Positions 33,521 to 38,090 of a DNA stretch of 49,525 nt are shown piece by piece. The first letter of the stretch is position 1; each line of letters starts with the position of its first letter. The translations under genes were made by a program, and so were the position numbers. The stretch comes from an uncultured Alphaproteobacteria bacterium (GTDB lineage: Bacteria; Pseudomonadota; Alphaproteobacteria; RF32; CAG-239). The notes under the pieces are model-generated. The model saw nothing but the letters and a program-made list of their open reading frames with translations. It made no database searches and had not been told where the DNA came from. The DNA lies in NCBI GenBank assembly GCA_947588655.1, contig CANPYS010000011.1, forward strand, positions 1-49,525. The letters run 5' to 3'.

Positions 33521-33550
33521 TTGACAATTCATAAAAAAAGGTGCTTATAT
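33521..33550 (+). promoter_or_regulatory. Promoter of the gene at 33592
   Basis: TTGACA (33521-33526), 18 bases, TTATAT (33545-33550). On the other strand TACAAT (33489-33484) may be the -10 box of the toxin-immunity operon, so the region is divergent. Confidence 0.45.
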
Positions 33551-33591
33551 GTCACAAAATAAAATTATGTTTCACCTATTATTTTCAAATT

Positions 33592-34290
33592 ATGAGTAAC
33601 AAAAAAATCATGAATGAGGAAGACCGTTTTGTTTACCTCATCAAGCAAGAAAAGCACAGAGCCACTTGCTTAGAAGCCATCCGCTTAGGACGTCCCTTGA
33701 CACCATGGGAAGTGAAGTCAATATGTAGATGCCCGGAAGCTTTGGAACGTATTCTAGAGATGGGATTTGGTTGCAAAGTTTATGGATATCATGCCAAAGA
33801 CAAGGATGAAATTTTCAAAATTTTATGCGAGCATTTTGACAGAGGCTATTTTTTCAAAAAAGTTTTGCACCATAAAAATTTATGGTTCAATTTTCTGCCC
33901 TATTTCTCTTCAAGAGGGGATAGAAAAGTCCTGGAAGGGTATTTGGGAGAGATTTTGAAAGCCGACAAGATGCTAACGGCGGAAAATTTCTTCTTATCAG
34001 CAACGGCATTACATCGTAAGCTGAAAGGCAACATGAACAAAAAAATGTACGACTTCATGCGCCAAAGAACGTATATTTTGAGCTTGAAGAAGTATTTTTC
34101 ATTGCCGATTATGCTTGAATACGGCGACTATGTTGCAGAAGGAGGAATCCCGTCCATGTTCTTGGCAAAATCCGTTCAGGAACATCCGGAGCTTTTGGGG
34201 CTGATTAAAAAATACCCCAAAGCTTATGAGCTCTTAAAAGAGACTCAGATAGAGGAGGTAAAACTCCTTCTTCAAAAGTACACTGATTAA
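33592..34290 (+). CDS. Hypothetical protein divergent from the HNH/SUKH pair
   Basis: 232 residues, soluble, basic and helical. The N-terminus is MSNKKIMNEEDRFVYLIKQE, and the central part suggests short repeated helices of an ankyrin- or HEAT-like kind (EALERILEMGFGCKVYG, HPELLGLIKKYPKAYELL), though I cannot confirm this. No ribosome site is clear; ATG 33610 is an alternative start. A strong terminator follows. I do not recognise a family, and its closeness to the toxin pair may be incidental. Confidence 0.6.
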   Translation: MSNKKIMNEEDRFVYLIKQEKHRATCLEAIRLGRPLTPWEVKSICRCPEALERILEMGFGCKVYGYHAKDKDEIFKILCEHFDRGYFFKKVLHHKNLWFNFLPYFSSRGDRKVLEGYLGEILKADKMLTAENFFLSATALHRKLKGNMNKKMYDFMRQRTYILSLKKYFSLPIMLEYGDYVAEGGIPSMFLAKSVQEHPELLGLIKKYPKAYELLKETQIEEVKLLLQKYTD

Positions 34291-34291
34291 G

Positions 34292-34321
34292 AAAAAGCGC
34301 CTGATTTCAGGCGCTTTTTCT
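34292..34321. terminator. Bidirectional terminator between convergent genes
   Basis: AAAAAGCGCCTGA-TT-TCAGGCGCTTTTTC is a near-perfect stem with A- and T-runs on both sides. It lies between the gene ending at 34290 and the glycan operon ending at 34340. Confidence 0.9.
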
Positions 34322-34339
34322 TATATTTTAGATCGGCTT

Positions 34340-35620
34340 TTAACGCTTTATTTTAACCTTGATACCCAAAATTGTAATGTTTTTATGGGTCTTGTCCCTT
34401 GAGTTTTGAATTGAAAAGACGGTTCGTAATATGCTTTTTAATAAACTTTTATTTTCGTGGGCAATAAAAGTGTTGATGGCTTGATATAAGTTAGCTGATT
34501 GAGAAATTTTTATTTTTTTAAGGTGTTGATGATATAAGTTTTTACTCTCGCGCGAAACATGCCCTTTTCTCAACCCCTTTAATTTAGCGAACTCTATTAA
34601 AAGACGCTTTTGCTCTAGCTTTTGTGAGGAAATAAGATCATCTGCCGTATCCTCTTGAATATCAAATTTTTCCTTTATTAAATCAAAAATATCTTTTCCA
34701 AGCTGTGTCCTTAAAATAACACTACTTTTCCCTTTAGAATCTGCATGACGGGGGATATAATTATCTCCCAAAGAGATATCGGCTTTTTTATTTAATTTAT
34801 TAAAGCAATAAAGGCATCTTTCCATGATAAAGAAATCTTTAATTTTCATTCTTTCAGCACTCGGTAAATCAAGAGAAGAACCGTCTGTATACTCAATTTT
34901 TACATTTCCGGGCCAGCCGGTTTGGGATTTAGTTCTAAAGAACAAATGCTTTATTTTTTTGTTTTGGCTTTGAGGGTGTTGTTTAAAATATTCTACAGCA
35001 CCATAGTTCATCATCTTATCGCAAAATAAGCCAAGAAAAAGATAATTATTTTTATTCAAGTGTTTCAAACGAATAAAATTTTGTATACCTGTTAGGGCGC
35101 AACCAGTTCCAATTAAAATAACTTTTTTAGAAGGATGAGTAGCCATATATTCGCAACTTCTTGCATGAGAAACAGGCAAATACCTGCTTTTTTGTGTTTG
35201 AGCAAGGTTGCTGCTTTTATCAAAATATTTCGTTTGAAGTTGCACTTCATAGGCATAATCATCAAGTAAAAATGCACAATCATAAATATTTTTATTCAAA
35301 AGTTCAGAAATAATTTGCGTGGCGACCCCGCCTGATGTGGCGTTTTTCAAAATTTTTTGATCTCGTGTTTGGGCGCATAAAATACTTTGATATTCTCCCA
35401 AAAAAAGATTATGAATTGATTGAGAATGATCATCGTTGAAAAGATCCCCCACAGGGCATACTTGAGCACAAAGCCCGCAATGAACACATTGTGTAGAAAC
35501 AGTTGGCAGATAATGGTATGCCTTTTTTTGAATCAAAATGCATTTTTTGGGGCAGATTGTTTGGCAGATACCGCATTCTATACATAAATTTTGATGAACA
35601 ATTTTTGTTATATTATTCAT
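34340..35620 (-). CDS. Coenzyme F420 hydrogenase/dehydrogenase beta-subunit-like protein of the glycan operon
   Basis: 426 residues. Two 4Fe-4S motifs at the N-terminus, CIECGICQTICPKKC and CVHCGLCAQVCPVG, then ATSGGVATQIISELL and the FrhB-type domain (GTGCALTGIQNFI, FCDKMMNYGAVEYF, RCLYCFNKLNKKADISLGD). Proteins of this family are often encoded beside pyruvyl transferases in exopolysaccharide clusters, where they may reduce a sugar intermediate. The C-terminus NITILGIKVKIKR resembles that of the glycosyltransferase in the same operon. The start overlaps the pyruvyl transferase end by eight bases, so its translation may depend on the frame status of that gene. Confidence 0.8.
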   Translation of the reverse strand: MNNITKIVHQNLCIECGICQTICPKKCILIQKKAYHYLPTVSTQCVHCGLCAQVCPVGDLFNDDHSQSIHNLFLGEYQSILCAQTRDQKILKNATSGGVATQIISELLNKNIYDCAFLLDDYAYEVQLQTKYFDKSSNLAQTQKSRYLPVSHARSCEYMATHPSKKVILIGTGCALTGIQNFIRLKHLNKNNYLFLGLFCDKMMNYGAVEYFKQHPQSQNKKIKHLFFRTKSQTGWPGNVKIEYTDGSSLDLPSAERMKIKDFFIMERCLYCFNKLNKKADISLGDNYIPRHADSKGKSSVILRTQLGKDIFDLIKEKFDIQEDTADDLISSQKLEQKRLLIEFAKLKGLRKGHVSRESKNLYHQHLKKIKISQSANLYQAINTFIAHENKSLLKSILRTVFSIQNSRDKTHKNITILGIKVKIKR

Positions 35621-36805
35621 AAAGGTATTTCCACAATATATTAAAACAGCTATTTTGTTGAATTTGAAGCAAATGTTTATTGATTGTGTCTTTTTCTTGT
35701 TCTAGATGTGTTATCATATATTCTAATTTTTTGTTAAATTCATTGCAATAAATCTCTTGACGCGCGTCAAACATATATTTTTCTTGTCCCATTTTCTTTG
35801 TAAGAGAGATATATTTAACGGCCCAACCGATAACCATCGCGGGAATAAAATTTTTATAAGCATGAACAATAGAGTGAAATCTTGACGAAATAAGAACATC
35901 AAAATGAGGCAACATTCGTGTAAAGTCAATACAATTAAAAAAGGTTTCTATTAAAATGACATTTTGATTGTTTGGAAATAGATTTTTTATGTCTTTTGAA
36001 AGATCTACATCGCCCAAATCATACGAGGCAATGTAAACTTTATAACTTTTCTCAAGTAGCATTTGAATGCTGTTTTGGTAAATTTTAGAAAGCATATCAT
36101 TGTCAGCTCTTTCAAAAACGCGTTTATTTGGCACAATTAAGGCTCTTCTTTCATGGGGAGCAAAATTAAAAGTTTTAGATTTTAGATGTTTATAAATACC
36201 TTCATAAGGTTGAGAAGACTCCAAAACAAGATCATTGGAAAGCACAATATTTTGAAGATGATAAGATTTAAGCAAATTATATCCATCTTCTTCTCTGCAA
36301 AAGATTTTATCACAAAGCGATAAAATCTGAATAAGTTTATCATTTGAGGTGGAAAAGTCAAAAGGCCCGAAAGATTGGGGTAATAAAAAAATTTTTTTAT
36401 GATATTTATGCGCAAGAAGAATTGTATCTAACAAACGCTGATTAGCTCCCCCCCCCATTGAGATGATAAAGCATAGCCACTGATATCAAGAATTACGTCA
36501 CATGCCTTATAAATGTTTGGAAAATTATATTTTTTGAGTTTTTCTTTATTTCCAACGAGTGTGTAAAAAAGCCGTTTAAGAAAAAGATAAGAAGAATGTT
36601 TTAGGAAAAATCTTCTTAAATACTCACTTTCTTCTAAAAATGTTATATGATCAAAATCATCAGGATTAATTTGATGAAACCCATGAAGACATAAGACTGT
36701 AATTTCAGAAAATTTATCTTTTTTCTTAATTTCAGAAATAGTCTGATAAAGCATAGATTCTGCGCCTTTATTGGCAAAACCGGCTCCGGTGATTAAATAT
36801 TTCAT
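35613..36805 (-). CDS. Polysaccharide pyruvyl transferase, phase-variable, out of frame in this sequence
   Basis: The gene is split by one frame step at a run of nine G (36448-36456 on this strand). The first part (125 residues, MKYLITGAGFANKGAESML to DISGYALSSQWGGEL) reads into a stop. The second frame continues as GGGANQRLLDTILLAHKYHK, with LLPQSFGPF and LISSRFHSIVHAY, which together form one pyruvyl transferase domain. Ten or seven G would give one protein of about 397 residues (W-GGG-ANQR). Pyruvyl transferases add pyruvate ketals to surface polysaccharide. ATGA overlap with the upstream glycosyltransferase. A true mutation or an assembly error is possible, but the tract suggests switching. 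Confidence 0.8.
36448..36456 (-). repeat. Nine-G homopolymer inside the pyruvyl transferase gene
   Basis: C9 on the plus strand, G9 on the coding strand. A second G9 lies at 37926-37934 in the neighbouring gene. I noticed no comparable long G/C run elsewhere in this AT-rich window. Confidence 0.85.
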
Positions 36806-37993
36806 TTTTTCTCCTCAAATTTATGTATTTTTAACCGTATTTTGATACCCAAAATTGTAATGTAAAGATGTTGCTTTATGTGGTTGGATTTAATTGAAAA
36901 GATATAATGATACCAAGGATATTTTGGCTTTATCTCCTGTTTGTACAAAGACAAGTGCTCTGCAAGGTTTGAAACATCTTTATTTTTGATAAACTTAATT
37001 AATTGTGGCCAAATGAAATCTTTAATTAATCTCTGACTATCTTTACATTTGTAAATGTCTTCAATCAAAGCTTCAGCGAAAAGTTTTTTTGCTTCAAAAG
37101 AGTCGTTTTGAAATAAGGTGTGTGAAACCATGCCACGGATGATAATCATATACGATAGTATGTATAGATTACGGTTTTCATCAAATAAAGAGGAAGCGTT
37201 GACTTCATCTAAAATCAGGGCTTGTGCCCGAAGGGCTGAAACAAAGTGTTTTAAGGGGATTTTTTGGTCATCCAAACTACCTTTGCGCTTGTAATAATGG
37301 TAATAAACATCATCAATGAAAGCCAATGTCGGGTGCTTATAAATCACCCTTGCCAAAAATACCACATCTTGGGACTTAGGGCATTCGGACGGAAAACAAA
37401 TATGATGTTTTAAAATAAAAGCATGTTTATAAAGACCAGTTTGCCACTCACCCATAAAATAATAATTATTTTTTTCTATAGCTCCGTTTGATTTGCTCAC
37501 ATAAGGTTGCCCATTCAAAGGGTAAACCTTTATTTGAGCTTTTACCAAGTCCAGATTTCTTTCTTGAGCGGTGGTATAAAGTCTTTCATAAAAATCAAAA
37601 TCAACAGCATCATCTGGATCCACAAAGCCTAAATATTCTCCTTTGGCAACTTCCAAGCCTTTATTGCGTGCCACCGCTGCGCCCTGATTCGTTTGTAAAC
37701 AAATCACATGAACACGCTTATCTTGAAGGGCATAATGATTCAAAATTTCAAGGGAGTTATCTGTTGAACAGTCATCAATACATAAAATTTCAATATCTTG
37801 AAGTGTTTGCGCAAGAAGGGAATCTAAACATCTTTTTAAATAGGGTGCAACATTATAAACAGGAATAATGACACTAACTTTAGGACAAACCGAATCACAA
37901 AATGTGTTCGCCTTGGAATCAATTACCCCCCCCCGTAGGGCTTAAAGGCTTACTGGATATAGCTTTAGGGTTATATCCTTTTATTTTATTCAT
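36802..37993 (-). CDS. Family 2 glycosyltransferase, phase-variable, out of frame in this sequence
   Basis: ATG 37993, with GGAG nine bases upstream, opens a leader (MNKIKGYNPKAISSKP and SPTGGGN) that stops just after a nine-G run (37926-37934). One step away, the open frame continues without a stop from VIDSKANTFCDSVCPKVSVI through IIPVYNVAPYLKRCLDSLL, IEILCIDDCSTDNS and the FVDPDDAVD metal motif to a C-terminus YITILGIKIRLKIHK. Eight or eleven G would fuse leader and enzyme into about 396 residues. GT-A enzymes of this kind build LPS or capsule. Lacking a start of its own before NHYAL (TTG), the enzyme is probably not made in this state. Confidence 0.82.
37926..37934 (-). repeat. Nine-G homopolymer near the 5' end of the glycosyltransferase gene
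   Basis: The tract follows codon 19 of the leader (CCT ACG...). It is one G too long for the downstream frame. Slippage by one base would switch the gene on. Confidence 0.85.
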
Positions 37994-38090
37994 GATAACT
38001 TTCTCCATAAATAATTTTACAATATTTAAATAAAAGATATATAAAAAATTGCAATATATTTATCACACCTTATACACATTGAAACAACTT

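Follow-up and report, generated by a model that had tools for sequence, protein, structure and literature searches.

Why does a polysaccharide pyruvyl transferase gene lie in two overlapping reading frames around a run of nine guanines? The question arises in a 49,525-nucleotide stretch (the window; contig CANPYS010000011.1) from an uncultured bacterium of CAG-239, which is placed in RF32, Alphaproteobacteria (PMC12509527). Named relatives identified through proS are uncultured Alphaproteobacteria from the rumen and other animal guts. The 5' part of the gene is a 125-aa open reading frame (ORF) on the minus strand (36428–36805), delimited from the ORF list and by alignment to an intact orthologue, against which approximately its first 118 residues represent the protein proper and the remainder is out of frame. 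A 281-aa ORF on the same strand (35613–36458) forms the 3' part, assigned from the ORF and its profile match. The two overlap by 31 bases around the G9 homopolymer (36448–36456, minus strand; read as C9 on the plus strand). With nine guanines, the upstream frame ends in SSQWGGELISVC followed by a stop, whereas a different frame is the open one in the downstream half. The gene is thus OFF in the assembled consensus. Direct reading of the frames, with the orthologue as the full frame, showed that a change in tract length toggles between the full-length and truncated products. An earlier note on this DNA had given the same tract position, an overlap of about 30 bases, restoration of one frame at ten or seven guanines and a repaired protein of 397 residues; all four stood, the joined halves giving exactly 397 aa.

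The two halves were also claimed to be one polysaccharide pyruvyl transferase, and the family profile agrees. The joined protein matched PF04230 with 88.6 bits over positions 1–278 of 280 (gathering score 25.3), that is, across the whole domain. The downstream half alone scored 80.8 bits (positions 79–278) and retains the SSRFHSIVHA motif; the upstream 125-aa half alone gave no family match in the profile search. The closest relative is a single uninterrupted 399-aa ORF from another genus of the same family (G055, L187:6604-7803), 56% identical to the joined protein over 398 aa and ungapped at the tract. An FrhB-type gene comes after it, as in the window. At the position of the G9 tract the orthologue has TGGGGGGAC, and this G6 stretch suggests that pre-existing Trp-Gly codons were the origin of the tract.

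Could the two parts instead be separate functional genes encoding a split enzyme? The ATG of the downstream ORF directly abuts the tract, which speaks for it, but no ribosome-binding-like sequence lies ahead of it, and the upstream part matches no family by itself. The existence of the uninterrupted orthologue in a sister genus argues that the parts are not separate genes and already largely refutes this idea, which we regard as barely credible. Homologues divided into separate functional genes, the counter-case named in the earlier note, were not found: PF04230 matches occur almost always in one open frame across 82 genomes of the family, and the only others crossed by stops besides the window copy are a match interrupted once and a weak fragment below threshold.

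Within PF04230, the gene shares with CsaB and WcaK the full-length profile match once joined and the S-R-x-H-type motif (SSRFHS) downstream. Equivalence to either was ruled out by scores far under the equivalog cut-offs: 54.0 bits against 213.1 for CsaB (TIGR03609), and 27.8 against 399 (NF007452) and 25.2 against 727.1 (TIGR04006) for WcaK. It also differs from both in adjoining a gene for an FrhB/FdhB-type iron-sulfur protein, with which it is fused in sister genera. Querying the PDB by sequence with the joined protein returned a chance match and no relative, and the downstream half alone gave an AlphaFold model with pLDDT 39. Scanning the genome contigs with the downstream half as query recovered no relative, but a relative emerged when the same bacterial family was searched with the profile.

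The gene sits in an islet of about 4.6 kb (33521–38090) with 33% G+C, against 39–41% in the flanks. It contains a GT2 glycosyltransferase gene (36802–37998, minus strand; PF00535, 1.1e-39), the pyruvyl transferase gene, an FrhB/FdhB-type iron-sulfur flavoprotein gene (34340–35620, minus strand; PF04432, PF04422 and Fer4) and a 249-aa ORF. The GT2 stop overlaps the transferase start (ATGA) and the transferase overlaps the FrhB gene by 8 bp, all head to tail in one operon. Rfam and tRNA scans of the window found nothing. In about a dozen loci of sister genera within the family (L157-L171), FrhB and pyruvyl transferase domains share one ORF of approximately 700–820 aa; because of these fusions, the two proteins very likely act together. 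Our literature searches found nothing on the chemistry of the FrhB/FdhB–pyruvyl transferase fusion. The islet is present in one assembly only. A close relative (isolate Lapin-021__bin60, L077; proS 98% identical) lacks it, with the flanking genes adjacent, and a profile search of the genus mate G001 gave no PF04230 match. Since the islet is missing in the nearest relative, there is no same-genus copy for comparison.

An islet that is a recent or unstable acquisition, with the consensus frame broken in both of its glycan genes, is what a decaying pseudogene would look like, its frameshift caught at the tract and no longer able to switch back. The state of the gene argues otherwise. Both halves read through without a stop except at the tract and match the uninterrupted orthologue over their full length; the break coincides exactly with the G9, one of dozens of such runs that the genome carries. 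Decay would also fail to predict that about half of the tracts inside ORFs of this genome are in frame (see below). We consider loss by decay unlikely, although it is the strongest of the competing explanations.

Long G runs were exceptional at both window and genome scale. We took the criterion of at least nine G from the poly-G phasome of Neisseria (PMC5953494), which the tract at 36448–36456 reaches. For G/C runs of this length in the window, the first-order expectation was 0.053, with a probability of 0.0014 for two or more; G/C runs of six, seven or eight were absent. The 1.55-Mb, 55-contig genome holds 58 tracts of G≥8 (two sites being counted twice at overlapping contig ends), compared to 15 in the genus mate and 0–9 (median 2) in 29 other genomes of the family. 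Counted in the window and in 249 kb surrounding the tracts, run lengths were bimodal: 460 G4, 57 G5, 2 G6, no G7, 8 G8, 32 G9, 16 G10, 2 G11 and 1 G12. Among tracts of at least nine, G9 made up 63% and G10 31%. A/T runs decayed smoothly with length, unlike G runs. This gap in G-run lengths points to maintenance of the long tracts. Most tracts fall within genes for surface glycans or DNA methylases; products of the genes concerned include glycosyltransferases, methyltransferases, KAS III, SDRs, a DegT aminotransferase, hexapeptide acetyltransferases and DNA methylases, and one tract is in an opacity-type porin leader. Tracts are therefore above chance, judged by number, bimodality and the control genomes, and concentrated in surface and restriction-modification genes.

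Two general causes of the excess were considered and rejected. Alphaproteobacteria are not generally tract-rich in this manner: the two control genomes with many tracts, G050 (138 tracts; 55% G+C) and G037 (48), show, where sampled, a far smoother run-length decay and few tracts clearly in ORFs. One of these two has about the same G+C as the genome studied here. Loss of mismatch repair was dismissed as the source of the excess because MutS and MutL are both present and intact.

The frames of the tract-bearing genes speak to the remaining explanations. Across 31 tracts inside ORFs, 16 leave the frame intact, 10 displace it by one and 5 by two, a mixture that fits switching and not uniform decay, a single direction of recoding or uniform base-calling error. 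Ribosomes or polymerases can slip on long G runs, and programmed ribosomal frameshifting or transcriptional slippage could thus supply a constant fraction of full-length protein with the DNA unchanged; at G9 a shift of one step back would suffice. Against such recoding, the shifts required across the genome run both ways or are not needed at all, which leaves no common direction, and two sites differ in length in the DNA itself. Recoding is accordingly judged unlikely, somewhat less probable than decay.

Homopolymers are also a recognised weak point of sequencing and assembly, and this is a fragmented draft genome with metagenome-assembled relatives, so that the true gene might be intact and the count wrong by a base. 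One-base miscounts cannot, however, create 58 long G runs with no G7 among the counted lengths and a smooth decay of A/T runs, and a miscounted run would remain slippage-prone. Illumina sequencing, moreover, reads such G tracts accurately (PMC6321876). An error of this kind is, in our estimate, marginally less probable again than recoding.

Alternative lengths were present in the assembly at tracts other than 36448–36456. The start of contig C1 and the end of C22 carry the same 113–115 bases and differ only by G10 versus G12, and C18 and C36 have 103 bases in common, differing only by G9 versus G10. The sample likely held two lengths at these sites and the assembly broke there; sequencing stutter is an alternative that could partly explain the differences. 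Tracts lay within 100 bp of a contig end in 6 of 58 cases, where 0.41 were expected (P = 4e-6). One orthologous site has G9 in the genus mate and G10 in this genome. The alternative lengths at the two other tracts are established directly, as are the tract at 36448–36456 with its frames, the descent of both halves from one gene, the excess of tracts across the genome and their bimodal lengths.

Further features of the tracts are worth recording. In 42% of cases (24/57) the tract was followed directly by TAA or TAG, whereas in the same DNA stop triplets follow 5.6% of G4–G6 runs (Fisher P = 6e-13); the next base was T or A in 56 of 57. The tract at 37926–37934 in the window is one example. With a TAA or TAG in this position, one of the three frames always terminates right after the tract. 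One surface-glycan locus (C4:33301-64602; L064, L065) holds 18 G tracts in 31 kb, with two KAS III genes whose tracts both fall at the conserved FGxGxSWG motif, along with transketolase halves, SDRs, a DegT aminotransferase and methyltransferases; G055 has a tract-free KAS III relative (L187:551-1693). Tracts in DNA methylase genes (C3:30513, C3:23682, C34:6257) put an N6/N4 methylase out of frame, leave an EcoRI-methylase-like gene in frame and lie near the start of a C5 methylase; phase-variable methylomes are a possible consequence. A choline-kinase/APH-like gene with a G9 in its 5' part (C15:10367) is reminiscent of licA, and an opacity-type outer membrane protein gene has a G10 in its leader (C3:10646).

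The genome-wide tract set strongly supports the proposal of phase variation at the poly-G tract made in the earlier note. We put at roughly 80% the probability that G9 is a slipped-strand phase-variation switch in a surface-glycan pyruvyl transferase gene, with the consensus in the OFF state. Translation would start normally, reach the tract, leave the family frame and stop a few codons on; some cells, by gaining or losing G, would have an open frame and make the full 397-aa-type enzyme. For 36448–36456 the most likely cause of such changes is slipped-strand mispairing during replication, as in Campylobacter and Neisseria. Acting with the adjacent FrhB-type protein, this enzyme probably decorates a surface polysaccharide with a pyruvate ketal; both this substrate and the change in glycan phenotype are predictions. 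Intact MutS and MutL would restrain slippage, which is compatible with switching given that poly-G tracts of such length act as switches in other species.

A second G9 (37926–37934, minus strand) lies near the 5' end of the GT2 gene, whose ATG precedes it, and likewise puts that gene out of frame. The earlier note correctly observed that this tract has a different arithmetic and needs eight or eleven guanines. Its argument that differing required lengths permit independent switching does not hold: any two tracts mutate independently, so the lengths needed say nothing on the matter. With a tract of its own in the GT2 gene, the two steps encoded by the islet could be shut off separately, and it is plausible that the two tracts switch independently and give four glycan states. 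The gene order nonetheless suggests partial coupling of GT2 and transferase translation: because the three genes overlap in one operon, GT2-OFF may dampen the genes downstream. As the transferase gene has its own ribosome-binding-like sequence (GAGGAG), this coupling may be weak.

Large poly-G phasomes are known in Campylobacter, Helicobacter and Neisseria. The Campylobacter tracts of flagellin glycan, LOS and capsule genes resemble those described here in spanning G8–G12 with G9 and G10 dominant, lying mostly in the ORFs of glycan genes, forming an ON/OFF mixture and occurring in a genome of approximately 1.6 Mb with low to moderate G+C. Tract lengths in Campylobacter are 52% 9G and 30% 10G, and the PhasomeIt phasome of C. 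jejuni has a median of 20 tracts (PMC6321876). In contrast, the present genome is that of an alphaproteobacterium, with about 50 tracts of G≥9 and with MutS and MutL found; the length at 36448–36456 is known from the assembled consensus. Neisseria, with the same tract type, a modal length of 9 and a surface-gene phasome, has 15–19 G tracts per genome in the pathogenic species and N. lactamica at the same cut-off (PMC5953494), again fewer than the 50 or so here and in a lineage that belongs to a different class. Our literature searches, with most subscription papers outside their reach, turned up no account of poly-G phase variation in this alphaproteobacterial lineage.

More than 50 such runs in a small genome imply that many surface-glycan and DNA-methylation genes are probably flipped by slippage, as in Campylobacter. 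Phase variation of glycan genes would help cells to evade phages or host antibodies. We lean towards the broader view that a gut-associated alphaproteobacterial genus independently evolved one of the larger known poly-G phasomes (~50 loci of G≥9 across a 1.55-Mb genome that has mismatch repair genes), its tracts expanded from conserved glycine codons in genes of the glycan, fatty-acid-type and DNA-methylase classes, and sugar and pyruvyl transfer in the islet switching separately. Automatic annotation will label such genes as pseudogenes or split ORFs. The tract-free orthologues of sister genera and the tract-bearing genes here offer a natural before-and-after comparison, and the contrast between about 50 tracts of G≥9 and about two in most sister genera suggests that a commensal-type lineage evolved the strategy anew.
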